DNA of 64,000 bases from Erwinia sp. E602 (GTDB lineage: Bacteria; Pseudomonadota; Gammaproteobacteria; Enterobacterales; Enterobacteriaceae), in contig NZ_CP046582.1 of NCBI RefSeq assembly GCF_018141005.1, positions 2,914,001 through 2,978,000 on the forward strand, in the 5' to 3' direction. The translations under genes were made by a program, and so were the position numbers. Numbering within the stretch: position 1 is the stretch's first letter; each line of letters begins with the position of its first letter. Below the pieces are notes generated by a model. The model saw only the letters and a program-made list of their open reading frames with translations. It had not been told where the DNA came from and did no database searches. Below are positions 6,625-23,303 of the stretch, piece after piece.

Positions 6625-7374
6625 TCATTCGTTTTTAGAATGCAGCTCAATCGTAAAATCACAGTAATTGTTAAGACACCAGGTTCGGGTATGTTCAACC
6701 GGCCGGTCGTTATGTGTAAAGCCCGTCCGGGTCACCAGTAACACGGGCTCATTCTCGTCGGTGCCAAGGTAGTATGCCAGTTTAGCGTCCGTCATCGCTG
6801 CGCTAAAGTTCTGGGTTGCCCGCAGTACCCGGGCACCTTTCTTTTCCAGGTGCCGGTACAAAGACTCACCCAGCTCACCGACGTTATCCAGCAAATGCGC
6901 CGGAAGAATCGCCAGCTGGAGGGAAACGGCAATGCCGTTAACCTTTCTGAGTCGGGTCAGTTCCACTATTTCGTCATTGCCCTCTGCCATTTGCAAGGCA
7001 CGACGCTCATCCGGCGAGCATGGCCGCCGCAGATACCCCATCAGATCACTTTGCGCCGTGCCGCCGCTGGCCGCAGCCATTTCACTGAAGCTCTCCAGAA
7101 ACGGCAGGGACTGACGCACATGCGGCGCAATAAATGTTCCCACTCCCTGATTGCGTAAGAGAATGCCCTCTTCCAGCAGCTGTAACAGGGCCTTACGAAC
7201 CGTGCCACGCGCAACCTGCAGCATCTCTACCAGCGTCCGCTCTGACGGCAGGACATCGCCTGCACGTAAGCGACCTTCGCTAATTGCAGTTTTTATGCAA
7301 TTCACCAGTTGTAAATACAGCGGCAGCCTGCTGGATTCATCAAGGTGGAATTCAGTTGGTGAGGATGTGCTCAT
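6625..7374 (-). CDS. GntR-family transcriptional regulator with UTRA domain
   Basis: Likely ligand-responsive repressor of the divergent PTS cluster. The 249-residue protein has an N-terminal winged helix (about residues 15-80) with the typical GDVLPSERTL and ARGTVRKALLQLLEEG. A C-terminal UTRA effector-binding domain follows (about 95-245), ending in the usual NYCDFTIEL. The frame is open up to 7518, but ATG 7374 (MSTSSPTEF) fits the family length; its ribosome-binding site is weak (GAAG). UTRA regulators commonly sense a phosphorylated sugar, which would suit the adjacent PTS, but the ligand is not known. Confidence 0.85.
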   Translation of the reverse strand: MSTSSPTEFHLDESSRLPLYLQLVNCIKTAISEGRLRAGDVLPSERTLVEMLQVARGTVRKALLQLLEEGILLRNQGVGTFIAPHVRQSLPFLESFSEMAAASGGTAQSDLMGYLRRPCSPDERRALQMAEGNDEIVELTRLRKVNGIAVSLQLAILPAHLLDNVGELGESLYRHLEKKGARVLRATQNFSAAMTDAKLAYYLGTDENEPVLLVTRTGFTHNDRPVEHTRTWCLNNYCDFTIELHSKNE

Positions 7375-7572
7375 AGGTCTTCGTGGATATCCTGACTGGT
7401 TCAGAATGAGTGAACCAATTGTTATCCAGTGACGCGGGATTGTCATCATCAGAATGATATTGCAACCCGCTGAGCGTGATCCGCACCACAAATTTTCATC
7501 CAGATTCAAAAACAACATCGGTTGCTTATGAAAGGTCTATCAAAGGTGCATTAATGGTACATATCGATTTTT

Positions 7573-7605: not shown

Positions 7606-8988
7606 ATGCAGGGAAACGTCTTTCTTATGATGCAACGGCTGGGTAAGGCTCTGATGCTGCCTATTGCCGTTTTACCGATAGCCGGGTTGCTGTTACGCCT
7701 GGGGCAACCTGATGTTCTGGATATCAGTTTTATCACCAAAGCCGGACAAACGCTGTTTGACAACCTTCCGCTGCTGTTTTCCATGGGCATCAGCGGTGGG
7801 CTGGCAAAAGATAACCACTGCGCTGCCAGCCTGGCGGGCACCATTGGCTATCTGGTTCTGACTTCCGTCATGCAGGCTATCAATCCCGAGCTGAATATGG
7901 GGGTGCTGGCCGGTATTCTGACCGGGCTGTTAGCCGGATTTATCTACAACCGCTTCTGTAATATCAGGTTGCCGGAATTCCTGGCTTTTTTTGGCGGTAA
8001 GCGTTTTGTTCCGATCGCTACGGGATTAAGCTGCCTGGTCATCGGCGTTGCGCTGGGATGGGCATGGGCACCGGTGCAGCACGGCGTGAATGCGGTGGGA
8101 AACTGGCTGATCGCATCGGGTCCGGTTGGCCCGTTTGTCTACGGTATGCTGAACGTTATCTTCCGCGTCGTGGGCCTGCACCATATCGTCAATTCGCTGG
8201 TCTGGTTTGTGTTTGGTGCATATACCACTGCCGATGGAACTGTTATTACCGGCGATATTCACCGGTTCTTTTCAGGCGACCCGTCAGCGGGGGCATTTAT
8301 GACGGGGTTTTTCCCGGTATTTATGTTCGCGCTGCCAGCAGCATGTCTGGCCATGTATCACGCCGCGCCGAAAAAAACGCGTTCTGCCGTAGCAGGGCTG
8401 TTTCTTTCGCTGGCACTGACAACGTTACTGACGGGTATAACTGAGCCCGTTGAATACACCTTTCTGTTTCTGTCCCCTGTGCTCTACGGTATCCATGCCT
8501 TACTGACCGGTGTCGCTATGGCCGTATGCCAGGCCCTAGGCATCAAAATGGGATTTACCTTCTCTGCTGGCCTGATTGACTATGTGCTGTCCTTTGGGCT
8601 TTCTTCACGCCCCTTGTTGATATTTCCAATAGGTATACTGTGGGCGCTGATCTATTATTTCTTGTTCAGGTTTTTTATAAGCCGTTTCAATCTGGCCACG
8701 CCGGGAAGAGAAGAAACGGATAAGTCTTTTTCGCCTCCTGTTACCTCGGCGCACCGTGCAGCGGCCTATCTCGCCGCGCTCGGTGGCGGGAATAATTTAA
8801 CGCGTATTGACTCCTGCATTACGCGCCTGCGGCTGGAGGTAGTCAGCATGGACAATATTCAGGAGCACGAGCTTAAAAACCTGGGTGCCATGGGTATTGT
8901 CAAACGTGGAAATACGGGGCTGCAGGTCATTGTCGGGACGCAGGCTGAAACTATTGCTGATGAAATTCGCTCGTTAGTTAATCAATAA
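7606..8988 (+). CDS. PTS sugar transporter subunit EIICB (glucose/GlcNAc superfamily)
   Basis: Membrane permease that imports and phosphorylates a sugar, 460 residues. The EIIC domain (residues 1 to about 370) has many membrane helices and the conserved substrate-site motif GITEPVEY. The C-terminal EIIB domain (about 385-460) has the phosphorylated cysteine C404 in LTRIDSCITRLRL. No EIIA domain is present, so phosphate must come from an EIIA elsewhere, for example Crr. Ribosome-binding site GAGG precedes the start. It heads a three-gene plus-strand cluster, divergent from a GntR/UTRA regulator. The substrate is unknown; the EIIC resembles the NagE/MalX group more than PtsG, but this is an impression. 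Confidence 0.88.
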   Translation: MQGNVFLMMQRLGKALMLPIAVLPIAGLLLRLGQPDVLDISFITKAGQTLFDNLPLLFSMGISGGLAKDNHCAASLAGTIGYLVLTSVMQAINPELNMGVLAGILTGLLAGFIYNRFCNIRLPEFLAFFGGKRFVPIATGLSCLVIGVALGWAWAPVQHGVNAVGNWLIASGPVGPFVYGMLNVIFRVVGLHHIVNSLVWFVFGAYTTADGTVITGDIHRFFSGDPSAGAFMTGFFPVFMFALPAACLAMYHAAPKKTRSAVAGLFLSLALTTLLTGITEPVEYTFLFLSPVLYGIHALLTGVAMAVCQALGIKMGFTFSAGLIDYVLSFGLSSRPLLIFPIGILWALIYYFLFRFFISRFNLATPGREETDKSFSPPVTSAHRAAAYLAALGGGNNLTRIDSCITRLRLEVVSMDNIQEHELKNLGAMGIVKRGNTGLQVIVGTQAETIADEIRSLVNQ

Positions 8989-9000
8989 GGTAAAACTGTC

Positions 9001-9930
9001 ATGACGAACAAACGCTTACTGGACTGCTGTGCTTCTGATTATATGTCGATGGATAAAAAAGCGCTTTTGTATGCTATCCGTGCCAGTGAAGGCCGGGTAA
9101 TGGTGAGTGAAACCATTGCAATAACTCAGCCACTGCTCAACGACGTGACAAATGCGGAACTGGCTGCATCACAAGGCGCGGATATCTTACTGATTAACAT
9201 GTTTGATCTTGAAAACCCTCAGATCCGCGGGCTTCCTGCAAACATTGCACCACCGCAAATACTGCGTGAACTACAACGCCTGACGGGGCGTCTCATTGGC
9301 GTAAATCTTGAGGCGGTTGATCCTGAGTTTGCCGTTGCTCATGACAATATCTGGAAAATGAAACCGGGACGCGCCGCAACAGTAGAAAATGCGCGTAAGT
9401 TAGTTGATATGGGTGTGAAATTTCTGGTGCTGACCGGCAATCCCAATAATGGCGTCAGCAATCACGCTCTGGGAATGGCTGTCAGAGATATTCGCGATGC
9501 GGTTAAAGAAAGCGCTGTTATCATCGCCGGAAAAATGCACGGCGCGGGGATCGTACAGGAAAGCGGCAATCGCATTATTAACGAAGAGGACGTGATCGGG
9601 TTCGCCTCCCAGGGGGCTGATGTTGTTTTACTTCCGGCACCGGGTACGGTGCCCGGAATGAGCCAGCAGCGCGTCGCATCGCTTATTGATGCTGCGCACA
9701 GCCAGGGCGCACTGGTAATGACAGCGATTGGTACATCACAGGAGGGGGCAGATATCAACACCATTCGTCAGATAGCGCTGATGAGCAAAATGGCAGGAGC
9801 CGATCTGCATCATATTGGCGACACGGGTTATATGGGGGTGGCATTGCCAGAAAACATTCTGGCATACAGTATCGCGATCCGCGGGGTAAGGCATACCTAT
9901 GCCCGCATTGGTCGGTCAATTAATCGCTAA
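9001..9930 (+). CDS. TIM-barrel protein, DUF7916-like (former 'PEP phosphonomutase' annotation)
   Basis: 309-residue soluble protein starting 12 nt after the EIICB gene. Beta-alpha repeats with barrel-like strand ends are visible: ADILLINMFDLENP, RLIGVNLEAVD, VKFLVLTGNPNNGVSN, AVIIAGKMHGAG, ADVVLLPAPGTVPG, ALVMTAIGTSQEGAD. The last part reads like the phosphate-binding end of an aldolase-type barrel. I recall this family as DUF7916, often found next to PTS permeases and sometimes mislabelled as a phosphonomutase or haloacid dehalogenase. A role in processing the incoming sugar phosphate is a reasonable inference, but the reaction is unknown. Confidence 0.65.
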   Translation: MTNKRLLDCCASDYMSMDKKALLYAIRASEGRVMVSETIAITQPLLNDVTNAELAASQGADILLINMFDLENPQIRGLPANIAPPQILRELQRLTGRLIGVNLEAVDPEFAVAHDNIWKMKPGRAATVENARKLVDMGVKFLVLTGNPNNGVSNHALGMAVRDIRDAVKESAVIIAGKMHGAGIVQESGNRIINEEDVIGFASQGADVVLLPAPGTVPGMSQQRVASLIDAAHSQGALVMTAIGTSQEGADINTIRQIALMSKMAGADLHHIGDTGYMGVALPENILAYSIAIRGVRHTYARIGRSINR

Positions 9931-9959
9931 CAGAGTAATAATTAAAAGGGAGGATAATT

Positions 9960-11864
9960 ATGTTCCATAAATGCATCAGCAAACCAGATATAATAAAATC
10001 ACATAAAACAGAGGGGGATGAAAAGGAGAATAAAAACAGCCTCCTTCGGAATTTAAATATAGTAAATAATAACATTGCTAAAATATTGATAGTTGGCTAC
10101 TCCCCTACCGGCGGAGGGCATACCGCACGAACACTGAACGTCGTTGAACATGCGCTGCAAAGAGGGTCTTTGCCTGCTGGTAGTCAGGTCTATTTTCATG
10201 TACCTCCTCGCTGGGAAGGGACACCAAGACCCGCATTACTGGAGATATTAGCCAAGACACTTTTATCAAATGGCATTAGCGTAATACTCGCAGAGTCGGA
10301 CAAACCCGTTTATGGATATCTGGATGAAAAAACAGGTTCCTCAAACGATCCCGAGATTTTGAAACGAATTGCGCTACATCCATTACGCGATAAAGAAAAG
10401 ATTGGAAAGAATGCCTTTTTAAATAAATATTTCCCTTGTCAACTCCCTCCACAGAAAAGTTCTTTTAAAAATTACACTCCAGGGGATGATTTTGAAAATT
10501 TACCGAGAATATCCGCTTTCACCATGATGGAAAACATCATCAGGATGAATGATCAAAAAAAAGACAATATATGGGTATTGTCAGATATGGATCCAGGCCT
10601 GCAGAAAGCCGCTCACAAAAATTGCATTCCTCGTAAGCACAGAGTTGATCAGCAGAACCATGCAATTTTATTAAAGGAAAATGATATCAATTCGAATTTA
10701 CTTTTGGCTAATGCCGTGCTATCAAAAGTTTTGGATGCCCGCGGAGCGGGTATATCACATATCGCACTCGGCGGAAAAAACACGCTTATCGATGCATGGA
10801 AAACTGCAACGAAATTGGGTGTTGATGAAAAAACCCCTTCAGATGACCGAAAATCAATAATTAATAAAATCATTTACCCGTTTGCTAAATCACCTGATGA
10901 TTCACCTTGTGATATTGTTAACGGCTGTGTATTGAAAGGTCATGGCGTAGACTCACCTAAAGCTATTGAAAAGGTGATTTACACCTACGCCCATAAAAAA
11001 ACGAACATCATAGCAGAACATGTGAAAAAGCAGTTAAAAACAAAGCACCTTGATTATCTGGACAAACTGTTTATTTTTTGCGGGAAAAATGCCATTCCTG
11101 GGTACAATGCAATGCACCTGGCTTATCTGACGGATGCTGATGGCATCACAACGGCTGGGGCAGGAACCAGCGGAGAGTTCGCATACCTGCACAGGAAAGG
11201 TGGCGCTAAATCCAGCCTCTTAATTTTGCCCATTGAAAATCACAATGAACAAGAGGCCATTGCAGACACTTTGCACCTTGAGTTCCCGGAACATATATTG
11301 CGCATAGTTTCGGCTGAACCGATTGAATACGGAAAAAAAATTGATGAAGTCGTCAGAAGAAAAAGCATAAATCAATCTGGTACAAAACATGATTCAGGAC
11401 AATTAATGAAAGCTATTAGTTCTCCCGGGAGCTATGTTGAACAAACTCATGACATTTTATTCTCCCATGCCGACATGAGTGAGCAAATGATAAATTTCTG
11501 GAAGATTCAGCGAAAGATGTACCACCATCAGGATATGAAAGCAACCAGGCTTTATCTTAAGCTTTACTTCCAACTTACAACCTATCTTTCTATGGATAAC
11601 ATACACTTTCCTGTGGAGATTTTTTTCAAAAAAGATGCCCCTCCTGCAATAACGTTTGATGATTTACTGGGGGTTAATAGATTATTCAGTAATAATACCG
11701 AGATGAAAAAACTCATCAACATGTCATCTGAAAAGGCTGTATATGATCTCCCATTATTTAATGAGGTTAAGTGCCTGATGACCAGAAATAAGTTTCCTCT
11801 ATCTGAGGATGCCATTAGCCATTTAAATGAGAAATTCGGTCATTACATGACTACCGGTTTTTAG
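9960..11864 (+). CDS. AT-rich gene for a 634-residue protein of unknown function with GT-B-like motifs
   Basis: I do not recognise a family. The start is clear: GGGAGG lies 6 nt before ATG 9960. There is no signal peptide or membrane segment, so the protein is probably cytoplasmic. Residues 43-58 (IVGYSPTGGGHTARTL) resemble the glycine-rich N-terminal loop of MurG/MGDG-synthase-type glycosyltransferases. Residues 398-431 contain AGAGTSGEFAYL and later LPIENHNEQEA, which resemble the donor-binding C-terminal half of such enzymes. Codon use and base composition are visibly AT-rich compared with all neighbours, including the two genes upstream in the same cluster, so lateral origin is likely. 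Function could be glycosyl transfer onto or from the PTS product; this is only inference. Confidence 0.6.
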   Translation: MFHKCISKPDIIKSHKTEGDEKENKNSLLRNLNIVNNNIAKILIVGYSPTGGGHTARTLNVVEHALQRGSLPAGSQVYFHVPPRWEGTPRPALLEILAKTLLSNGISVILAESDKPVYGYLDEKTGSSNDPEILKRIALHPLRDKEKIGKNAFLNKYFPCQLPPQKSSFKNYTPGDDFENLPRISAFTMMENIIRMNDQKKDNIWVLSDMDPGLQKAAHKNCIPRKHRVDQQNHAILLKENDINSNLLLANAVLSKVLDARGAGISHIALGGKNTLIDAWKTATKLGVDEKTPSDDRKSIINKIIYPFAKSPDDSPCDIVNGCVLKGHGVDSPKAIEKVIYTYAHKKTNIIAEHVKKQLKTKHLDYLDKLFIFCGKNAIPGYNAMHLAYLTDADGITTAGAGTSGEFAYLHRKGGAKSSLLILPIENHNEQEAIADTLHLEFPEHILRIVSAEPIEYGKKIDEVVRRKSINQSGTKHDSGQLMKAISSPGSYVEQTHDILFSHADMSEQMINFWKIQRKMYHHQDMKATRLYLKLYFQLTTYLSMDNIHFPVEIFFKKDAPPAITFDDLLGVNRLFSNNTEMKKLINMSSEKAVYDLPLFNEVKCLMTRNKFPLSEDAISHLNEKFGHYMTTGF

Positions 11865-11978: not shown

Positions 11979-12371
11979 TTAAGTCCAAATCTCTGTGCCA
12001 TCCGGGGTTAACCAGACCACGCCGGCAGGTGAGTTAGCCAGAAACCACATGCCGACCTGATCCAGTTCGTCGTCTTCGTCTACAGAGGGATACGGCGGCC
12101 AGGCCTGCTGTATTAGTGTGATTTGCTGCTCAACGGAGCCGGGCAAAAATACGCCTTCCGCGGCTAGCTTTATTTTCCCGGTACTGAGCAACGCGGTTAG
12201 CAGCACGAAAAACGCGTGTTTTCTGAACAGGTAATTATCAGGCAATTCAACGCATTCAACGCATTCAACGCATTCAACGCATTCAACGCAGATATGTTGC
12301 CATATCGTCCCCATCGATAATCCATAAGCACTTTCTGTCACGGAAGCGCAGAGTTCAGTGATGTTTTTCAT
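11979..12371 (-). CDS. DUF596-family protein, probable orphan CDI immunity protein
   Basis: 130-residue protein. The pattern AYGLSMGTIW, LPDNYLFRKHAFF, GKIKLAAEGVFLPGSVEQQI and WFLANSPAGVVW is that of DUF596, a family usually found downstream of cdiA-type toxin genes and thought to act in immunity. The start at 12371 has AGGA 6 nt upstream. Residues 28-42 are five in-frame CVE/VEC repeats made by five perfect copies of a 9-bp unit (12245-12289), inserted just before LPDNY. No matching toxin gene is present upstream; only a cdiA fragment without a toxin end lies next to it. It may therefore protect against toxins from other strains, or be inactive. Confidence 0.7.
   Translation of the reverse strand: MKNITELCASVTESAYGLSMGTIWQHICVECVECVECVECVELPDNYLFRKHAFFVLLTALLSTGKIKLAAEGVFLPGSVEQQITLIQQAWPPYPSVDEDDELDQVGMWFLANSPAGVVWLTPDGTEIWT
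12245..12289. repeat. Five perfect tandem copies of a 9-bp unit inside the DUF596 gene
   Basis: The unit ATTCAACGC occurs five times head to tail. Because 9 is a multiple of 3, copy-number change keeps the reading frame and adds or removes Cys-Val-Glu triplets in the protein. Confidence 0.95.
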
Positions 12372-12491: not shown

Positions 12492-12604
12492 CGCTGCGCC
12501 GGGCCTGCGGGATGATTTCGGCGCACAATCATCTATATCCAACTGATTTTATTCAGGTAATTTCAGGGAAACAGAAGTAAGCGGAGCATCGGTAACTGGC
12601 TGGT
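12492..12604 (+). pseudogene. symE C-terminal remnant (second copy)
   Basis: This stretch matches 13577-13695 (the 3' end of the better-preserved symE remnant) with many changes: shared words include GCCGGGCCTGCGGGA, TTTATTCAGGT and CGGTAACTGGCTGGTT. No intact reading frame remains. It ends exactly where the duplicated cdiA fragment begins, so it was probably brought in as one block with that fragment. Confidence 0.55.
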
Positions 12605-12606
12605 TC

Positions 12607-13140
12607 CCCCCGCCAGCAGCGCGTTTTCCATATTGCCGCCAAACTGGCTGCCGATGCTGCCGCCGCTGCTCAGGCCCACGCCCTGATGTTCCGACTTCAC
12701 GTCGGCCCTGTTGTGGATATCGCTCCAGCCCAGCGTGCCGGTGGTCAGGCTGTTTTTATCCGCCGTGGCGGTGGAGCTGATGACGGAGCCGTCCAGCTGC
12801 GTATGCTTACCAACGTTAACGTTAAAGCCGCCTTCACCGGCAAACAGCCCGCTCTGCTCCCGCACCGAGTCGTAGTTGCTGTGGATTTTATCGCGGCTGG
12901 CGCTGACGCTGCCCGATGCGACGCTATAACCGGCTCCCGCGCTGGCGTTCTGCTGCCTGCTGTCGTAGCGGTCGCCGTCCTGCTCTGAAGCAATGGTCAG
13001 GTTGCCGCCAGCGTCAGCCACAATCGCTTTCCCGCTGGCCTGCGCCCCCTTCAGCGTCGTGTCGCCGCCGCTGATGATAACCAGATTATTGCCCGCGGTA
13101 ACGGTGGTCTCAGTATGGGTCAGGCCGTTGCCGTGTTCGC
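12607..13140 (-). pseudogene. Orphan fragment of cdiA (duplicate of an internal segment)
   Basis: Nearly identical to 15647-16192 inside the large cdiA gene (CdiA residues about 2371-2553), with a 12-bp deletion and a few substitutions. The open frame continues to 12563 and 13201, but both ends are unrelated sequence and no ribosome-binding site or natural start is apparent. It lacks the VENN motif and any toxin end. It is most simply read as the remains of an older or displaced cdiA 3' cassette, generated by recombination between homologous segments and now silent. Confidence 0.8.
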
Positions 13141-13382
13141 GGACGGAGGGAACCTCAGTAAAGAGACCCAGGAGCCCGGAAGATAAGTACGCTACCGCCA
13201 TCGCTCCCGTTTTAAGAAGAACGCTATATGAGTGGAATGCAGGTTGTGCCTTGCCGGCTTTATATTTAACCCGGCTGGCTCAAGGGTTATCGGAGCATGA
13301 TGATACCGGATTTTGAAATCTGACTGAGGTAGTAATGTGCTGATTATACTGTATTTAAGTGGATATTAGTTTCATGCTTCAA

Positions 13383-13732: not shown

Positions 13733-13987
13733 TTACTTAGGTTGATCTTTTTTGCTACTTCGCTCTTGCAGCCTGATTTTTATCCAGAGTCCAATGGCTA
13801 AGCCCAGTCCTCCTGCATATCCAGACTCGAAAAAAGATGAAAAAACATCACTCAAAAAGAATGAAAAACATCCTATTTTGAAATACACAATTAATGATGC
13901 AAGAAATACAGACACAGCATCAAGCCATAAAAACAAAAGCATACATTGAAGTATAAGCCTGACTAAAAGTATAAAATTAGCGATCAT
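13733..13987 (-). CDS. cdiI: Probable CDI immunity protein, small membrane protein
   Basis: 84-residue hydrophobic protein with about three predicted membrane segments (roughly residues 4-22, 24-44 and 56-73) and a charged C-terminal tail. Its ATG at 13987 overlaps the 3' end of cdiA by 11 nt, with AAGGA of the cdiA end serving as ribosome-binding site. Position directly after cdiA is diagnostic for cdiI. The family itself is not recognised, which is normal because immunity proteins are highly variable. A membrane immunity protein suggests that the toxin acts at the inner membrane. The gene is AT-rich like the toxin end of cdiA. Confidence 0.75.
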   Translation of the reverse strand: MIANFILLVRLILQCMLLFLWLDAVSVFLASLIVYFKIGCFSFFLSDVFSSFFESGYAGGLGLAIGLWIKIRLQERSSKKDQPK

Positions 13988-16900
13988 TTTTCTTATCCTT
14001 TACATCAAGAGTTTCTTTTACTACTCCACTCGTTTTTTCATTGACATAGCTTCCTCCTATCGCACCAGTGATATCAGAAGCTTTATCTTGGATAACTTTA
14101 GAGGCTGAATTTTTTATTAATTTCCCAGCCCCAGATCCAGCTATTGTACCAACTCCAGCCCCAATGACAGAATTAGTTGGATCTTCTCCCTTAATCCCAC
14201 TACCTATAGCAGCCCCACCCATATTTATTCCGGCTGATGCGCCAATTCCTTTACCCGTGGTCGCCGCTGAGGTGATACCGGCCATAATCACGTCAACATA
14301 GCTGAACGGGTCGTTCCCGCTGAGCTGTGACACGGTATTAACACCCGCACCTATCGCCGCGTTAACCGCCATCCCTTCTCTAATGGTATTTCCCAGCACG
14401 CTGCCGCCAAATAACAGCGGCGCGTCGCCGATACTGGCGTTTGATTTATGGTAGCCCCAGGTATTCATTATTGTCTGCGCTTTCGCCATCGCCTCAGAGT
14501 CAGGGCTACGTTTTATATAATCCTGTCCCGACAGCAACCCCTTAACCAGTTCCTGCGAGACGGCTGAGCCATATTCTTTCTCCATTTCAGCGGCATAAAC
14601 TCGCAGATAACCCGCCAGCTCAGCCCGCTCAGCGCTGTTCATCTGTGAAGGGTCTTTGGTGAATTTTGACACCAGCGCATCGCTGCGTTTGTCTGCGTTC
14701 TCCAGCTTTATCAGCTCGTTAGCAGCGGCCAGGGACTTATCCCCCTGTTTGATTTTCTCCACGGCTTTGTCGAGTTTGTCTGAGGATGTGGCCCCCAGGA
14801 AATTATTCTCAACCGTCGTTTTCCCCGCCTGCGCCCCAGCGACCGCGTCCGCCGTGCCGTTACCCGCCAGGCCGCCCGCCAGACCCGCCGCGACCGTGGC
14901 CAGCGCCGAGACCGTCTGCCTCTCGCTCTCGCTCAGCTCGTCCGGGTTCTTACCATACATCTCCTGCGCCAGGATGCCAACCGCTTCTCCCGTCACCGCA
15001 CCCGCCGCGCCCGCCAGCACGCTGTTACCCTGCACCGCCGCCAGCACCGCGTTCACCACCGCGTGCGCGGCCAGTTTGCCTTTCGCGTCCAGCCCGCTCT
15101 GATGGCCGATAACTTCTGCGATATACGGCGCGGAGCCGCCCGCGATGGCCTTCGCGATATCGCCGCCCGCCAGCCCCTGCACCACCGCCGTCGCCGCCTG
15201 AACCGCGCGCTGCGCCCAGCCGCCGGTGCCCATGCCGGAGGCGTTCATCGCCCGGTCGAAGAACGTCTTGTACGCCTGGTCGCCGATGTCTTTTGCCGTG
15301 GCGGTTTTACCCGGGTTCGACTTCTGCCAGTCGGCCTCCGCTTTCTCCCGCTCCGTCTCTGAGAGGTTTTTCAGCTTCTCCGTCGCCTCACGCGTGGCGT
15401 TAATCGTGCCCTGGGTGCGCACGATATCCGCCGCCTGGCTCCCTATCTCCGCAATAAGCTGCGCCTGCTGTAACCGCTTCTGCTCCTTCTCCTTGTTAAA
15501 TATCGGCCCGATGCTGCCGTTAGCACCCTCAGCGTCACGGCTCAGCTGAGAAACATCCTGCTTCTGGGCATCCCCGTCGCGGATGGTGATACTGCCCGCA
15601 CTCACCGCCGCTTTGGTGGCGCCTTCCGCGCTGTCTTTGTGGTTTACCCCCGCCAGCAGCGCGTTTTCCATATTGCCGCCAAACTGGCTGCCGATGCTGC
15701 CGCCGCTGCTCAGGCCCACGCCCTGATGTTCCGACTTCACGTCGGCCCTGTTGTGGATATCGCTCCAGCCCAGCGTGCCGGTGGTCAGGCTGTTTTTATC
15801 CGCCGTGGCGGTGGAGCTGATGACGGAGCCGTCCAGCTGCGTATGCTTACCGACGTTAACGTTAAAGCCGCCTTCACCGGCAAACAGCCCGCTCTGCTCC
15901 CGTACCGAGTCGTAGTTGCTGTGGATTTTATCGCGGCTGGCGCTGACGTTGCCCGATGCGCCGCCCGCGCCCAGGGTATAACCGGCTCCCGCGCTGGCGT
16001 TCTGCTGCCTGCTGTCGTAGCGGTCGCTGTCCTGCTCTGAAGCAATGGTCAGGTTGCCGCCAGCGTCAGCCACAATCGCTTTCCCGCTGGCCTGCGCCCC
16101 CTTCAGCGTCGTGTCGCCGCCGCTGATGATAACCAGATTATTGCCCGCGCTAACGGTGGTCTCAGTATGGGTTACGCTGTTGCCGTGTTCGCTGCCTTTA
16201 CCGGCATTTACGTTCGCCGAGACGTTGAACCCGGCCCCGCCGGAGCCGGCGGTGACCCCCACGCCAAGGCTGCCGCCCCTGCTGCTGTTTGTCCCTTCAC
16301 TCTGTTCGCGGTTTTGCGCGGAGGTGAGGTAGATATCATTTTTCGCGTTCAGCGCCACATCGCCACCGGCGTCAACCTGGCTGCCGTTGATGCTGATATT
16401 GCCGTTATCGCTGGCACCCGCGTTCCCCTGCCCGGTGGCCGTGATGCTGATATTGCCACCGGCGCTGAGGGTGCTGCCCTGCGCGCGGCTGCTGTCGCTG
16501 TGGCTTTCGCTTTTCGACGACTGGCTGCCGAGAGAGGCGCTGATGCCGATCGTATCGGTGGCGCCTTTTTCAAATCCTTCGTCGCCAGGTTTTAGCCCGG
16601 CAGCCTGATTGCGTGCATCAGCCGCGCCGGTTTTCGCGCTGTCCATCTCCATCGCCTGTTGCGCCTGCACCGCGGCAAGCCCGGTTTTGGTTGCCTGCAA
16701 TCCGGCCAGGCGGCTGTCGCTCTCCTTACGGGCGGCCTGCGCGGCGGTGACGGCCGTGTTGATGGCCCCACCCGCCGCGCCGGAGAGCGCAAGTGTCAGG
16801 CCGCTGCTTTTCTGTTCAAAGCGTTCATCACGGGTACGCTGGTCATGTCCCGGATCGACGGTCACGCTGCTGCCGCTCAGCGTCATATTTTTACCGGCCA

Positions 16901-19900
16901 CCAGATCCGCACCCGCGACATGTACCGCATCGTTAGCCGTAATGTTCAGGCTGCCATCGCGGCTGCCAATGGTGCTGACGCTCTGGCTCTGGGTGGTGCC
17001 CTTCTCGTCAATCTCATGACGGCTGGACTGTTTGCCGATGCTGAAACCAATGCCACCGGTGCCAGACAGCCCGCTTTTTTTCTTCTCCTCCAGCAGGTAA
17101 TGAGCGTCGGTTTCGGTGGCGGCGCTGATATCAACCCGGTTGCCCGCGCGGATGTTAACATCGTCATCACCCACGACGGCCGAGCCGCTGACCTTGACAT
17201 CATGTCCGGCAGTAACGGTTACCCTGTTGCCGCTGAGCGTTGATCCCTGCTCACGAGTGACGCGATCCTCCTGCGCAATATGAGTGGTTTTTTTGTTCAG
17301 GAAGCCCTTCTTCGTACTCCGGACGTCGCTGGACTGCTCTTCACGTTCGGTCGCGGTATTCAGGATTACGTCCCGCTTCGCCGACACCGCCACCTCGCCA
17401 CTTTCACTGTGCAGGGTGCTGGCCGTCAGGGTGACATCGCCCGAGGTCGCGTTAAGCAGCACCCCCTCCTGGCCGCTGAAGGTGCTGCCAGTCACGCCAT
17501 CGCGGTGGGCTTCCAGCGTGCGGCTGGCCTTCGTTTTGCCCTGCCGGGTACTTTCAGCGTCCGCAATTGACGAGGTGATATGTACTTCGCCAATGCTGAC
17601 CTGGTTTGCCGTAACGCTGACGCTGCCTGAGGTGCTGTCAACCTGTGCGCCCTCCGCCCGGAAGGTATTACCGGCCTGCAGATCCACACCGCCCGCACCG
17701 CTGATGCTGCTGAGCTGCTGGCGGGTCTCATCATACTGGTTGCTGACCCGCGTATTGCCGCTCGCGGCGTTGAGCAGGCTGGAGCTGCTGACCTCCTCGG
17801 CCAGCAGGTTCATATTGCCCCCGGCGCTGGCCTTCAGTTGCCCGCCGGCAGCGAGCTGGCTGCCCTTAACAGTCAGATCGTTGCCGGCGTTGATGCTGAG
17901 CCTGCCGTCGGAGGTGATACTGCTGCCCAGCGCCTGCTGCCACTCCCCGCTGACCGTCGCCAGGCGTGAGCCTGCCTCTTCACGATCGCCCGCCGCACGC
18001 CCTCCCAGCGAACCGGATATCACCTCATAGCTGCCGGCATGGCTGCTTCGGGCGCTGCCGATAGTGATGTTATGGGTGGCGTTGATGGCGAGATCCTCTC
18101 TGGCCGCCAGCTTCGCGCCCTTCATCGTGATATCGCCGCCGTTGAGGTCAATCTTCCGCGCGCTGACTGCCGCCTGCCGCAGCGCGTTCTGCAGATCGGT
18201 ACTGATATCGATCAGATTCGCCCGGACCTGCACGGCATCGGCGCGAATGTCACCGCCCTGATGATGGAATTGGCCGGCGGTGACCTCCAGCGCCCCGTCG
18301 GCAAACAGATTACCCGCATTGTTAATGCTCTCTGCCGACAGCTTCAGCTCGCCGCCGCCAATTAACGCGCCATCGCCGGTCAGCCGCAGCGTACCGGGGG
18401 CCAGATAGACTTTCGGCACCAGCACCGTCTGTGGCCCCGCTGCGGTCTGCACCGTTTCACTCACCAGCCAGACGATATCCTGCTGCAGCGCGGCAATCTG
18501 CGCCGGGGTCAGCGCCACGCCGGTTGTCAGTTGCAGATCGCTGGCCGCCTGCGCGCCGCTGTTCATCAGCGCCTGATACTGCGCCATCGCGTCCTCGCCG
18601 TGCAGCGAAGGCCGCCCGGTCAGGTTCAGCAGCTGTTCACGCACCACCCGCTGCTCATAGAAGCCGTCGCCAAGGCGCTTGTGCACGGCAGCCGGATCGT
18701 AACCCACCCGCTGCAGCAGATAGTCGCTGCTGATAAATTTGCCGCGGTCGGCAAAGCGCGGATCGGTCACCACCAGATACGGGCTTTCCGGCCCGGGGCG
18801 CTGATGGAACAGGCCGTTATCCGGAATATGGCTGGCGACCTTCTCCGCCTGCTGCTGCGCGGTCAGCGACGGGTCGGTTTCACCCGGACGCTGCTCGCCC
18901 GCCTGCACCTGTGTGGCCAGCGGGTTACGTTCCCGCTCTTCGCGCGCCGCCTGTGCGGCCTGCTGCGCCGCCTCGGTAAGGCTGGTCTGCGCCTGGCCAA
19001 CGGTGGTGTTGCTAATGCTGACGGCGGTAATGGTGGTGTTGCGATTACCGCTGATGATGCCGTCAATCGTGCTGAGCGCGGTGGTCTCATCGCGATCGAA
19101 CTCAGGATGCCAGTGCACGGTGTCTTTATCGTAGTGATCGACGATGTGCTCCTGGCGCCGTTCGTTAACCGAGTAGCCGATATTTTTCACTTCACCGCCA
19201 CCGCTGACGGCCAGATCGCCATTAGCACCGATCGTGCTGGCATCGTTTAGCAATTCGTTACGGATAGTTAAAGACATACTGCCGCCGGCCAGAATGCGGG
19301 CAGCGCTCCCCTCGGAAACCAGCCTGTCGCGGAGGACTTTGCCGCTGGCACTGCGTTCGCGCAGGTTGTTGTAATCGGTCACCTGCGGCGCGTTGAAGAT
19401 GTCGAGGTGGCGCTGCGGATCCCACTGCTCGATTTTCCCCTGATTAAATTCACGCCAGAAGGTGTTGTGATAAGGGGTGGGCACGTCATCCTGGTGGCTG
19501 CCGCGCGTGGCGTAGAAGGTCATGTCAAAGCCCCCCTCAGCCCCCGGCTTCAGCGCCAGATAGTTCACCCACAGCTCAATTTCCCTGCCGTGATTGTTCT
19601 TAACCCGCACCTTCGCGCGTTTGTTATCCGCATCGATATCGAGGATGGTGCCATAGCGGCTGCTGTTAACCGCTGAATCATCCCGGTACGGAATATGCTG
19701 CGTCACCGGAGCCATGGTGTTTTTATCGCGGTTGACCCCGGACTTGTAGGACCGCCAGTAGTAGTTGTAACGGTGCCAGCGGTAATCCTCCTCTTCCGCT
19801 TCCCGTTCGATTTCCAGGCCGATACGGCGGTTCTCCAGCCGGGCAGCGTTGAAGGCAACGTTGCCATCCGCCTCAATGGTGGCGGCAAGGTTCTCAATCA

Positions 19901-22900
19901 GATCGCCGCTGCGCAGCTGCAGATCGCCCGCGCTGTAGATCAGCGCGTCGTCACGGTTGGTCAGTCGCTGGCGGGCGGTGAGATCGGTGCGTTCGGTTGC
20001 GGCGATCAGCGCCTGGCTGCCGTGATTGTCGAGGGTGCCAGTGGTTACCGCAATGCGATCGCCGGTTAAGGTGGCGCGGTTGTCCAGCCGGTCGCTGGCT
20101 ATCTGCAGGTTGTCGGCCTCAATCCGGCCGTCATTCTGCAGCAGACCGGTGGTAAGCTGCAGCGTTTTTCCGACCAGGCTGCCGCTGTTGTTCAGGCCGT
20201 TGCTGGTGAGCTGCAGATCGCCGGGCAGCAGCCACTGTGCCAGGTTGGTTAATATCCCGGCCACGCTCAGCGTCACCCTGCCGTTGCTGGTCAGCGTGTC
20301 GCCCGTGCGATGGGTGTAGTCGCCGCCCAGTGCCAGCGTCAGCGCCCGGCCGCCGGTGAGTGAACCGCCGGTATTATTCAGTGCGCGCAGCGTAGCATTC
20401 AGGGTGCCGCCGCTCTCAATGGTGCCGCGCTGATTCAGGAGTTCAGCCACGCCCGGGGCAGCATCTGCCGTGGAAAGCGCACGGTCAGCGGCGGATAGCG
20501 CGGCTGCGCTGTGATCCGCTGCCCTGGCCTCATCAGCCTTAGCCAGACCCTGCAGTGTGACATCGCCCTCTGCCAGCAGCCGACCCTCGCGGTTATCCAG
20601 CCGGTCGCTGGCGATGTTCAGCGAACTGCTGCTGTAGATCTGACCTTCACGGTTGGCCAGGCCGGTTGCCGCAATCACCGCCGCCAGACGGCTGGTGAGA
20701 TGCCCCTGGCGGTTATCAAGATCCTGCGCCTGCAGCTGCAGGCTGCCGTCTGCCGTCAGCTGCCCGTTACGGTTATCCAGCGTCCGGGCGGCGAGCAGCT
20801 TAAGCTCGCTGCCACCATAAACCTCGCCGTGGCGGTTATCGATGTTGCCGGCGTTAACGCTTATCACGCCGTTCGCTTTCAGCTGCCCGCTGCGGTTATC
20901 CAGCTCGCTCAGCTTGAGTGTGGCATCACCGCTGCTCAGCACGCTGCCGTTGCGATTTTCCAGCCGTCCTGCCTCCAGCGTCACTATCTGCTGGCCGCCG
21001 ATCCAGCCGTCATTGTTGTTCACATTACCCGTATGCAGCCGCACCGCCTGCTGGCCGAACAGGCGGCCGTTGCGGTTGTCCAGAGTACCGCCGCCATTCA
21101 GCGTCAGCTCGCCGGCCTGCAGCGTGCCACCCTGGTTATCCGTGTCGCCGTCAATATCAAGCCGGAGATGCTCAACGGCCAGCAGCTTGCCGCCCGCGTT
21201 ATTCAGCCCTTGCGCCGTCAGCTGCAGGTTCTCTGCCATCACCTGCGCATCGCGGTTATCCCATACGCCTGCGGTGCTCAGACCCAGCGTGCCGCCGCTG
21301 ATGATTTTTCCCTGCTGATTATTGATGCCGTCACGGGCATTCATCGTCAGCGATCCCTGGCTGGTCAGAGTGCCGTTGACGTTACTGATGCTACCGGCAT
21401 CCAGCGCCAGCGCGCCGTTGCTGCCGAGCAAGCCGCCATCATTACCGATCGGGCCGTCAGTCTGCCAGCGCTGCGCCTGCTCCCCCAGCGCCACCAGACG
21501 TCCGTTGGTATTGTTCAGAGATGCCGCCTGCAGGCTGAGGTCCTGCGCTTCAATGCTGCCGCTGCGGTTATCCAGCGCGCCGGTCAGCTGAAAGCGGCTG
21601 AGGGCATCACCGGTCTGCGTCCAGACGCCGCCCTCAGCCCACAGATCGTTGCCGGTAATCTGCCAGCTTCCCGCGCTGACTGAAGCGTTCTGTGCCGCAA
21701 TATCACCGGAGGTGGTCAGCCACAGCTGGCCGACGTCGAGGGTCGCGCCGGCCAGTGAGACGGCAGCCGGTGCAGCGTCTGCCGGAGACTGTTGCCGGTC
21801 TGCCTGCTGATGATTGCCTGTCTGAGGGGGATTATTCGCCAGCCGGGCTGCAGGGGTCTGCTGCGGTTTTTCGGTCAGAGTGGCCGATCCGCGGCGTTTC
21901 GCTCTTTCTGTCCGCCTGTCCGTGTCTGAGCTTTGCAGTATCGCGCGTCCGGCTGCCAGCCGGCTGCCGCTCAGGTCGACCCGGCTGCCGCTGACAGTGA
22001 CGTCTCCCCGACTTAACAGCCTGCCACCGGCACGAACCGTACCTTTACTCTTCAGGATCAGATCCGCCTTATGCACCAGCGAACTGTTGATATCGCTACC
22101 CGCCAGCAGATTTCCCCGGCTGTCGATGCCCTGCGCAGCCTGCAGCGACACGTCCCCGGCCGCAGCCAGTGTACCGGACTGGCGAAGATGTCCGCTGGTG
22201 CTGCTGACCTGCAGTTTTCCTCCCGTATAGAGGGTGCCGTGCTGTTCAATATCGTCGCGAGCCTGCAGGCGAATATCGCCACCGGCCTGGGTATGCGCAT
22301 TATCCTGCCACACCAGCCGCCCGTTGCTGCTGACGGTCAGCGTTTTGTCCGCCTGCAGCTGGCCGCCACGGTTGCGCACGCCAACGCCCGCTTCGGTAGC
22401 GATCATACGGATCGCCCCGCTGTACATGCCGCCCATCTGGCCCATATCGATGGCCAGTTCCGCTGGCCCACTCTCCCCCGCCAGCGGCTGAATAACCGAG
22501 CCATCGGCGCTGATGCGGTTGCGCCCGGCCACCACCGTGGCCTCACGGGTGGCGCGAATGCTGCCGTTAATCTTCACCGTGCGCGCCAGCAGCTCAACGT
22601 AAGCCGTGTCGTTACGGGCATTATCATTCAGCCCGCCGCCCGCCACCTCAATCCGTCCGCGCTCCACCTGCCAGCCCGCCAGGCTACCGTCCTGGTTCCA
22701 CTGCGGTCTGCCGGTGCTCAGCGTCATACGCCCGGCGTTGATGGTGCCGCATCCGTCGCACAGCAGCCCGGCCGGGTTGGCGACAATTACCTGCGCCTTA
22801 CCGCCCGCCACCTCAAGATAACCTCTCAGCTGGCTGGGGTTACTGCTGTTGACCTCGTTGAGGATCACCCGCGCCGGAGCACGCCCGTTCAGGTTCGGAT

Positions 22901-23303
22901 TGCCCTGAACCATGCCTGCCAGCTGCGTCTGCGTCATGGTCGCTGAGTTGTTAAGGATCGCCCCGCGTTTATCCACATCAAACTGCTGGTACTGATTGTG
23001 CGACAGCCCGGCCTGGTTTGGCGCGCTGATATTGACCTGCGGCAGGCCGTTCTGCGTATCGATCACCTGCGGCTGCTGGCTGGCGGGGGCACGCCCGTCG
23101 GCGACAATACCTGCCGCCAGCACCGGCGTGGCGCTGACGGCCAGCCCGACCAGCAGCGCCAGCGGACGCAGCGCGACCCACCGCCTGCGGCCGCCATTGC
23201 GCCCCTGGGCGGGCGGCGTGCCGCAGCCGCGCGCCAGCTCGGATACCACCTGCAGTTCACCGCGTGTGCGGTTGACGATATGACGATAACAGCGCTTGTT
23301 CAT
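13977..23303 (-). CDS. cdiA: CdiA contact-dependent growth inhibition exoprotein (3108 residues)
   Basis: Large two-partner-secretion effector displayed on the cell surface that delivers its C-terminal toxin into neighbouring cells. Residues 1 to about 65 are an extended signal peptide (MNKRCYRHIVNRTRGEL, then LLVGLAVSATPVLAA). The TPS secretion domain follows (to about 320; NPNL and NPAGLLCDGCG motifs). Long FHA-type repeats rich in LDNRNGQL come next. A middle region around residues 1150-1640 has the unusual YRWHRYNYYWRSYK stretch, probably including receptor-binding sequence, and a second FHA repeat block follows. VENN is at 2831-2834, leaving a 274-residue CT. The CT contains glycine/alanine-rich hydrophobic stretches (GINMGGAAIGSG, GAGVGTIAGSGAGK) resembling ionophore-type CTs. 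Base composition becomes AT-rich from about 14245, so the variable toxin may be only the last 90 or so residues. Confidence 0.93.
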   Translation of the reverse strand: MNKRCYRHIVNRTRGELQVVSELARGCGTPPAQGRNGGRRRWVALRPLALLVGLAVSATPVLAAGIVADGRAPASQQPQVIDTQNGLPQVNISAPNQAGLSHNQYQQFDVDKRGAILNNSATMTQTQLAGMVQGNPNLNGRAPARVILNEVNSSNPSQLRGYLEVAGGKAQVIVANPAGLLCDGCGTINAGRMTLSTGRPQWNQDGSLAGWQVERGRIEVAGGGLNDNARNDTAYVELLARTVKINGSIRATREATVVAGRNRISADGSVIQPLAGESGPAELAIDMGQMGGMYSGAIRMIATEAGVGVRNRGGQLQADKTLTVSSNGRLVWQDNAHTQAGGDIRLQARDDIEQHGTLYTGGKLQVSSTSGHLRQSGTLAAAGDVSLQAAQGIDSRGNLLAGSDINSSLVHKADLILKSKGTVRAGGRLLSRGDVTVSGSRVDLSGSRLAAGRAILQSSDTDRRTERAKRRGSATLTEKPQQTPAARLANNPPQTGNHQQADRQQSPADAAPAAVSLAGATLDVGQLWLTTSGDIAAQNASVSAGSWQITGNDLWAEGGVWTQTGDALSRFQLTGALDNRSGSIEAQDLSLQAASLNNTNGRLVALGEQAQRWQTDGPIGNDGGLLGSNGALALDAGSISNVNGTLTSQGSLTMNARDGINNQQGKIISGGTLGLSTAGVWDNRDAQVMAENLQLTAQGLNNAGGKLLAVEHLRLDIDGDTDNQGGTLQAGELTLNGGGTLDNRNGRLFGQQAVRLHTGNVNNNDGWIGGQQIVTLEAGRLENRNGSVLSSGDATLKLSELDNRSGQLKANGVISVNAGNIDNRHGEVYGGSELKLLAARTLDNRNGQLTADGSLQLQAQDLDNRQGHLTSRLAAVIAATGLANREGQIYSSSSLNIASDRLDNREGRLLAEGDVTLQGLAKADEARAADHSAAALSAADRALSTADAAPGVAELLNQRGTIESGGTLNATLRALNNTGGSLTGGRALTLALGGDYTHRTGDTLTSNGRVTLSVAGILTNLAQWLLPGDLQLTSNGLNNSGSLVGKTLQLTTGLLQNDGRIEADNLQIASDRLDNRATLTGDRIAVTTGTLDNHGSQALIAATERTDLTARQRLTNRDDALIYSAGDLQLRSGDLIENLAATIEADGNVAFNAARLENRRIGLEIEREAEEEDYRWHRYNYYWRSYKSGVNRDKNTMAPVTQHIPYRDDSAVNSSRYGTILDIDADNKRAKVRVKNNHGREIELWVNYLALKPGAEGGFDMTFYATRGSHQDDVPTPYHNTFWREFNQGKIEQWDPQRHLDIFNAPQVTDYNNLRERSASGKVLRDRLVSEGSAARILAGGSMSLTIRNELLNDASTIGANGDLAVSGGGEVKNIGYSVNERRQEHIVDHYDKDTVHWHPEFDRDETTALSTIDGIISGNRNTTITAVSISNTTVGQAQTSLTEAAQQAAQAAREERERNPLATQVQAGEQRPGETDPSLTAQQQAEKVASHIPDNGLFHQRPGPESPYLVVTDPRFADRGKFISSDYLLQRVGYDPAAVHKRLGDGFYEQRVVREQLLNLTGRPSLHGEDAMAQYQALMNSGAQAASDLQLTTGVALTPAQIAALQQDIVWLVSETVQTAAGPQTVLVPKVYLAPGTLRLTGDGALIGGGELKLSAESINNAGNLFADGALEVTAGQFHHQGGDIRADAVQVRANLIDISTDLQNALRQAAVSARKIDLNGGDITMKGAKLAAREDLAINATHNITIGSARSSHAGSYEVISGSLGGRAAGDREEAGSRLATVSGEWQQALGSSITSDGRLSINAGNDLTVKGSQLAAGGQLKASAGGNMNLLAEEVSSSSLLNAASGNTRVSNQYDETRQQLSSISGAGGVDLQAGNTFRAEGAQVDSTSGSVSVTANQVSIGEVHITSSIADAESTRQGKTKASRTLEAHRDGVTGSTFSGQEGVLLNATSGDVTLTASTLHSESGEVAVSAKRDVILNTATEREEQSSDVRSTKKGFLNKKTTHIAQEDRVTREQGSTLSGNRVTVTAGHDVKVSGSAVVGDDDVNIRAGNRVDISAATETDAHYLLEEKKKSGLSGTGGIGFSIGKQSSRHEIDEKGTTQSQSVSTIGSRDGSLNITANDAVHVAGADLVAGKNMTLSGSSVTVDPGHDQRTRDERFEQKSSGLTLALSGAAGGAINTAVTAAQAARKESDSRLAGLQATKTGLAAVQAQQAMEMDSAKTGAADARNQAAGLKPGDEGFEKGATDTIGISASLGSQSSKSESHSDSSRAQGSTLSAGGNISITATGQGNAGASDNGNISINGSQVDAGGDVALNAKNDIYLTSAQNREQSEGTNSSRGGSLGVGVTAGSGGAGFNVSANVNAGKGSEHGNSVTHTETTVSAGNNLVIISGGDTTLKGAQASGKAIVADAGGNLTIASEQDSDRYDSRQQNASAGAGYTLGAGGASGNVSASRDKIHSNYDSVREQSGLFAGEGGFNVNVGKHTQLDGSVISSTATADKNSLTTGTLGWSDIHNRADVKSEHQGVGLSSGGSIGSQFGGNMENALLAGVNHKDSAEGATKAAVSAGSITIRDGDAQKQDVSQLSRDAEGANGSIGPIFNKEKEQKRLQQAQLIAEIGSQAADIVRTQGTINATREATEKLKNLSETEREKAEADWQKSNPGKTATAKDIGDQAYKTFFDRAMNASGMGTGGWAQRAVQAATAVVQGLAGGDIAKAIAGGSAPYIAEVIGHQSGLDAKGKLAAHAVVNAVLAAVQGNSVLAGAAGAVTGEAVGILAQEMYGKNPDELSESERQTVSALATVAAGLAGGLAGNGTADAVAGAQAGKTTVENNFLGATSSDKLDKAVEKIKQGDKSLAAANELIKLENADKRSDALVSKFTKDPSQMNSAERAELAGYLRVYAAEMEKEYGSAVSQELVKGLLSGQDYIKRSPDSEAMAKAQTIMNTWGYHKSNASIGDAPLLFGGSVLGNTIREGMAVNAAIGAGVNTVSQLSGNDPFSYVDVIMAGITSAATTGKGIGASAGINMGGAAIGSGIKGEDPTNSVIGAGVGTIAGSGAGKLIKNSASKVIQDKASDITGAIGGSYVNEKTSGVVKETLDVKDKKNDR

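Follow-up and report, generated by a model that had tools for sequence, protein, structure and literature searches.

The question addressed here is what function is encoded by the conspicuously AT-rich gene that closes a sugar phosphotransferase system (PTS) operon in Erwinia sp. E602. The gene (9960..11864) lies in a stretch of 64,000 nucleotides (hereafter, the window; contig NZ_CP046582.1, positions 2,914,001 to 2,978,000; all coordinates are those of the window and refer to the forward strand unless indicated otherwise) and, according to the open reading frame (ORF) list, the homologue search and a structural model, encodes a 634-residue protein starting from an ATG. It was first singled out in a sequence-only reading, as either a new glycosyltransferase or a laterally acquired, effector-like protein. 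We conclude that the product is probably an inverting, nucleotide-sugar-dependent GT-B glycosyltransferase that belongs to an undescribed family and is structurally closest to MurG (GT28). The GT-B fold itself, as predicted by AlphaFold2, is nearly certain and, with the fold coming from the model and the invariant residues at a MurG-like donor site from conservation, glycosyltransferase activity appears likely; the inverting stereochemistry is extrapolated from MurG alone, and UDP-N-acetylglucosamine (UDP-GlcNAc) as the donor is a guess made by analogy with the same enzyme.

In the AlphaFold2 model, the window protein adopts the GT-B arrangement, with two Rossmann-like domains facing a cleft, and the matches to solved structures span residues 39-505. 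After re-alignment, the three best-scoring solved structures were all MurG, with UDP-GlcNAc 2-epimerases scoring below it, in agreement with the double-Rossmann fold anticipated in the sequence-only reading. The homologue search delineated a family of 67 proteins, the window protein included, and a repeated search with alignment recovered 65 proteins, none of them new (in both searches, the 7999 best candidates were scored). Residues Y343, C374, T397, G400, G402, G405, E406, E430, Q431, G633 and F634 are identical in 67/67 alignment rows; D209, K216, Q231, H234, K256, G271 and N274 are identical in all 66 rows that reach these sites, and G51-H54 in all 63 rows that reach this segment. The SPTGGGHTAR loop (residues 48-57; 10101..10130) aligns, in a weak local hhalign match, with the GGTGGH region of MurG, and GAGTSGE (residues 400-406; 11157..11177) and HNEQ (residues 428-431; 11241..11252) fall on MurG motifs as well, so that, in the same weak profile alignment and with the MurG residues numbered by spacing in the MurG of the Erwinia genome itself, E406 corresponds to Glu269, Q431 to Gln289, and E430 occupies the position of Gln288. 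An excerpt of a MurG study (PMC10966019) describes Glu269, Gln288, Gln289 and Arg164 as significant for UDP-GlcNAc. The block SDMDPGLQKAA (residues 208-218; 10581..10613) contains the invariant D209 and K216, and the block DQQNH (residues 230-234; 10647..10661), with the invariant Q231 and H234, resembles, by eye, the HEQN motif in the MurG of the same genome. With the motif residues kept across the 67-protein family, the two motif blocks that were originally noticed in a single sequence amount to more than chance. Of the two outcomes that were to refute the sequence-only reading, a model without the double-Rossmann GT-B fold and motifs that are not conserved among homologues, neither was observed. 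Under this interpretation, the donor, a UDP-sugar and perhaps UDP-GlcNAc, would be bound by residues 338-505, E406 presumably contacting the ribose and E430/Q431 the sugar, and the acceptor would be held by the N-terminal domain, with its SPTGGGHT and DQQNH loops.

Several observations weigh against this interpretation. Foldseek yielded no match at E <=0.001, the best hit being the plant UGT2 at 1.2e-3. Comparison by hhalign of the family profile with 25 MurG sequences (25 of 30 loci from the phylum were kept after trimming) matched locally in just two places, with GAGT..E plus HNEQ in one and SPTGGGHT in the other placed on the equivalent MurG motifs; the score of 25.9 was equalled by 1 of 150 column shuffles and is to be compared with 21.3 for reversed MurG and 23.6 for the WecB control (18 of 20 loci kept), a score that 3 of 150 shuffles reached and that came from a match out of register. 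The whole-length hhalign alignment with MurG was unusable and, given this failure and the weak local scores, we do not take the sequence alone as proof of kinship with MurG. Furthermore, the window protein has neither a match to PF04101, the C-terminal domain of GT28, nor a relative among PDB sequences; position 434, which corresponds to MurG Asn292 by alignment, is Ile in the window protein and Asn in 45/67 members; Arg164 of MurG has no assigned counterpart in the family; and diverged paralogues that lack the catalytic motifs (see below) retain D209, Q231, Q232 and C374, so that not all conserved blocks track these motifs.

The statement of the sequence-only reading that no described family accommodates this protein holds for the sources checked, namely, Pfam, NCBIfam and PDB sequences. 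The window protein is not covered by any sequence family of Pfam, NCBIfam, PADLOC or the PDB (the NCBIfam and PADLOC scans covered this protein rather than its relatives), and the family profile found no matches among PDB sequences. The nearest described family is PF04101, which was matched by 11 of 43 relatives at E <=1; in a rescan of 10 members, 5 matched, with P0029 alone exceeding the curated cut-off (23.3 vs 22). With regard to anti-phage defence, no PADLOC family was detected for the window protein or for the DUF7916 protein encoded next to it. Three candidate matches were dropped as chance ones: Csx1_HEPN of Pfam (E 0.12), FcpB of NCBIfam (E 0.0076, 15.9 bits against a cut-off of 400) and PDB entry 6ner (E 0.45). 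No paper on DUF7916 was found, and among the papers listed on MurG-like/GT28 transferases, contractile injection and type IVb pilus secretion, none was, judging by title and the start of the abstract, about this family.

The gene is the last in a four-gene set that includes a divergently transcribed GntR/UTRA regulator (6625..7518, reverse strand; Pfam and locus comparison), a PTS EIICB protein of the N-acetylglucosamine (GlcNAc) type (7606..8988; TIGR01998, 553.5 bits against a cut-off of 553.2), in which EIIC and EIIB but not EIIA were matched, and a DUF7916 TIM-barrel protein (9001..9930; Pfam and locus comparison). Its ATG is located 29 bases past the DUF7916 stop, and AGGGAGG, a Shine-Dalgarno-like element (9947..9953), can be read directly from the sequence 6 nucleotides 5' of the ATG. 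At a G+C content of 0.396 (0.383 in third codon positions), the gene ranks lowest in a set of 49 ORFs in the window that do not overlap and have 150 codons or more, for which the median is 0.622; DUF7916 comes second at 0.513, and the three operon partners fall in the range of 0.51-0.53. Thus, the base composition is indeed unlike that of every neighbour, as originally claimed, although the operon as a whole, and not this gene alone, is already below the window level. In 16 other loci (L002-L018 minus L013), the G+C content of the gene falls short of that of the remaining locus by 0.045 to 0.225 in 11 cases and is within 0.02 of it in the other 5 (three from Vibrio, one each from Legionella and Herbaspirillum), as would be expected if the gene had been acquired repeatedly from an AT-rich pool. 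The glycosyltransferases of the window and of Citrobacter are 47% identical, vs 82% for DUF7916, 80% for EIICB and 65% for the GntR regulator. Only 2 of 37 Erwinia genomes encode the glycosyltransferase (the other one being, as we infer, Erwinia phyllosphaerae, with L016 and L019), and among 295 genomes sampled from the bacterial family, 4 do. The gene is therefore patchy and probably laterally acquired; this part of the earlier proposal is well supported, whereas the effector-like character is at best suggested. The gene had no match in plasmids, in phages or, at the DNA level, in E. coli genomes, and none of 39 stretches in viral contigs that fit its pattern was confirmed.

In both Yersinia pekkanenii and Y. 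similis, the gene neighbours a locus for contractile injection that encodes a sheath, a CIS_tube protein, a gp19 tube and a hub; the stretch between this locus and the gene was found, in Y. pekkanenii, to contain a lysis pair of an M15 peptidase and Rz. In the shared block of 11.9 kb (89.6% DNA identity), the ratio of nonsynonymous to synonymous substitution rates (dN/dS) is 0.10-0.31 for eight machine genes, at dS of 0.056-0.316, compared with 0.83 for the glycosyltransferase pair, at dS of 0.335 and a protein identity of 61% (59% in a second alignment). When the sites are partitioned, dN/dS is 0.13 for the family-conserved ones and 0.94 for the variable ones (90% bootstrap range 0.76-1.2), and 23 of the 23 key residues checked are kept; decay of these copies is disfavoured because the core is spared. 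The rapidly changing surface suggests that the acceptor is a variable macromolecule of a rival, of a host or of the cell's own surface machines and, possibly, that the enzyme is deployed in conflict.

One possible role is that of a weapon, a glycosyltransferase with a conserved core and a diversifying surface that acts in the cytosol of other cells after delivery by, for example, a contractile machine. The location and the rates in Yersinia are compatible with this role, and so are the patchy distribution, the AT-richness of the gene and the variable N-terminal tails (the first motif starts anywhere from residue 18 to 199 in the 62/67 sequences where it was found). The range for the variable sites, however, does not establish an excess over 1, the dS of the glycosyltransferase slightly exceeds the highest value among its neighbours, and the Yersinia rate pattern is not proof of positive selection. 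Moreover, the DUF7916-linked copies evolve under purifying selection, with dN/dS of 0.15 for the pair L007/L008, 0.12 for L011/L018 (with saturated dS) and 0.45, on few changes, for L010/L011 (the respective values for DUF7916 are 0.12, 0.04 and 0.10; L010/L011 and L007/L008 are near-copies and not independent), and the other gammaproteobacterial loci contain, by eye, no injection genes nearby. We regard a weapon role as a real but minority possibility.

A second potential role, which we find rather doubtful, is the glycosylation of proteins in the cytosol, the targets being surface machines or adhesins of the producing cell itself, such as tail parts, PilV pilus tips or large adhesins. HMW1C (GT41), which glycosylates its adhesin, would be a functional analogue. 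In Janthinobacterium and Massilia, a motif-less copy and then an intact copy follow, on the same strand, the type IVb pilus genes T2SSE, PilS, PilV and SLT (T2SSF was identified among these in Massilia only), so that a PilV adhesin is at hand there, as is the contractile machine in Yersinia; the N-termini that were read show no evident Sec signal by eye; and, in the window, the gene for a 3108-residue haemagglutinin of the two-partner secretion (TPS) type lies 2.1 kb downstream in convergent orientation. Two ORFs, however, separate the glycosyltransferase from that TPS gene, and the loci of Vibrio, Cedecea, Ewingella and Erwinia have, again by eye, no adjoining adhesin or machine. Likewise, neither a contractile nor a pilus machine directly adjoins the gene in the Herbaspirillum, Trinickia and Legionella loci; in Herbaspirillum, a T2SSE gene is found ~8.5 kb upstream. 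In Janthinobacterium, a gene for a solute-binding protein starts on the same strand ~440 bp past the glycosyltransferase copy.

The operon context of the window brings up a different explanation, under which the GT-B protein performs no transfer to an acceptor but is an epimerase, phosphorylase or UDP-sugar hydrolase that functions, together with the GlcNAc-type PTS and DUF7916, in amino-sugar catabolism. The distribution of the partners argues otherwise. The sequence-only reading asked whether the gene always follows the EIICB and TIM-barrel genes, and it does not: in 18 loci (the window and 17 others, of which L013 ends at a contig edge such that its upstream side is not visible), DUF7916 adjoins the gene in 10, whereas the GntR regulator is present in 5 and EIICB in just 3, and among 17 host genomes, DUF7916 is present in 12/12 of those from Enterobacterales and Vibrio and in 0/5 of the others (Legionella, Trinickia, Janthinobacterium, Massilia and Herbaspirillum). 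The epimerase version also has to contend with the lower structural scores compared with MurG, the out-of-register WecB match and the lack of a Pfam match of the window protein to PF02350, the UDP-GlcNAc 2-epimerase family. A catabolic function thus seems improbable.

Within the gammaproteobacterial clade, DUF7916 is a linked partner of the glycosyltransferase, and the two proteins would be expected to share a process. DUF7916 is by far the more common of the two, exceeding the cut-off in 36 of the 295 sampled genomes, and all four genomes with the glycosyltransferase carry it beside DUF7916; similarly, 5 of the 37 Erwinia genomes encode DUF7916, both carriers included. In Buttiauxella, the two genes form a divergent pair, so the linkage outlasts rearrangement. 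In Yersinia, the genes are unlinked, yet are confined to the identical 2 of 25 genomes, a coincidence for which we calculate a chance probability of 1 in 300 when kinship is ignored. The two Yersinia DUF7916 genes (L141 and L142) reside in different neighbourhoods, with a divergent GntR gene in Y. similis and none found in Y. pekkanenii, and dS between them is 1.97, vs 0.335 for the glycosyltransferases; this gap and the different locations imply that the two genes were not co-inherited in Yersinia. If the two species acquired DUF7916 independently, the case for a functional link would be stronger; the alternative is that the co-occurrence arose by accident, so the evidence cuts both ways. In the phylogenetic tree (68 rows, with fragments and duplicates left out and L013 not included; midpoint root), a branch with support of 100/99 separates the DUF7916-linked and Yersinia copies, with the latter nested among the former, from all other copies; given this split, the partnership with DUF7916 looks ancestral to its clade.

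DUF7916 also occurs on its own. Copies without the glycosyltransferase are found among genes that, by eye, look like housekeeping ones (purB-like and two-component genes in L055, L056, L060, L064 and L067; an mnmE-like gene in L059), which suggests single-gene insertion. Distant members of DUF7916 in L073 and L145 (36% and 34% identical, respectively) are located near GntR-like regulators and near genes that, by eye, belong to other PTSs, which raises the possibility of a general function of the barrel in the metabolism of phospho-sugars. In Rahnella (L143), there is a GntR-EIICB-DUF7916 operon without the glycosyltransferase, which is on a different contig of that genome.

The region beyond the MurG-like part (the structural matches span residues ~39-505) is a mostly helical C-terminal extension (residues ~506-634; 11475..11861) that ends in TGF (11853..11861), with GF present in 67/67 and TGF in 65/67 sequences. 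Putatively, the extension packs on the core, and the invariant Gly-Phe end closes the active site or docks near it. The motif-less copies in Janthinobacterium and Massilia (L012:7622-9574 and L014:7649-9634), which are intact ORFs upstream of the intact-motif copies and are 21% identical to the window protein, lack SPTGGGHT, GAGT.GE, HNEQ and the TGF end alike and, judging by these losses, are apparently dead enzymes. Because the tail was lost together with the catalytic motifs, it seems to serve catalysis; this joint loss is the best evidence of such a role, although two related paralogues do not make a proof. These tandem paralogues from two genomes could be taken to indicate that the whole family consists of catalytically dead sugar-binding or scaffold proteins that retain the fold, but with the donor-site residues identical in 67/67 proteins, the fast-evolving Yersinia copies included, this is hardly credible.

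Combining these observations, we tentatively propose, in the awareness that it may well be wrong, an overlooked MurG-like family of conflict glycosyltransferases, in which one catalytic core, closed by a Gly-Phe plug, would have moved among three kinds of loci (sugar-PTS/DUF7916 operons, contractile injection, type IVb pili) while its surface diversified against a variable target, with a dead copy paired to it in some hosts. The frozen core, the fast surface, and the injection and pilus contexts point to a role in conflict, and no paper on such a role was found in the literature searched. If the identification of the glycosyltransferase is correct, it would add a new family with a testable catalytic site and an unusual invariant C-terminus and, conceivably, reveal the role of DUF7916, a partner family of unknown function.

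Two additional features of the window are located downstream of the gene. The ORF at 11979-12371 (reverse strand) encodes a DUF596 protein, near the beginning of which a VEC repeat is encoded by a 9-base unit that occurs five times without a mismatch (12245-12290) and keeps the frame. The product of a second, short ORF (12563-13201, reverse strand) contains a haemagglutinin repeat and resembles an internal stretch of the 3108-residue TPS protein (13977-23303; VENN pre-toxin domain); by eye, this ORF could pass for an orphan module from a locus of contact-dependent inhibition.

The family can be compared with several known systems. UGT/GT1 transferases and UDP-GlcNAc 2-epimerases have lower Z scores than MurG against the model. 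The TGGGH loop presumably is akin to the N-terminal domain of monogalactosyldiacylglycerol (MGDG) synthase; the window protein had no match to that domain, PF06925, at E <=1, and an MGDG synthase was found in none of the 150 genomes scanned as a control set. Glycosyltransferase effectors of the Afp and PaTox type are GT-A enzymes; the Yersinia copies are similar to these in their location beside a contractile-injection locus. PF04101 leaves the N-terminal half and the C-terminal part of the family unmatched, and the window protein as well as most members do not match it. MurG itself is the closest counterpart. The window protein has no match at E <=1 to TIGR01133, the MurG equivalog, and the Erwinia genome encodes a separate MurG of 353 residues, compared with 634 in the window protein; the family further differs from MurG in the additional helical C-terminal part with its invariant Gly-Phe end and in a distinct set of invariant residues, D209, K216, K256, N274, Y343 and C374.
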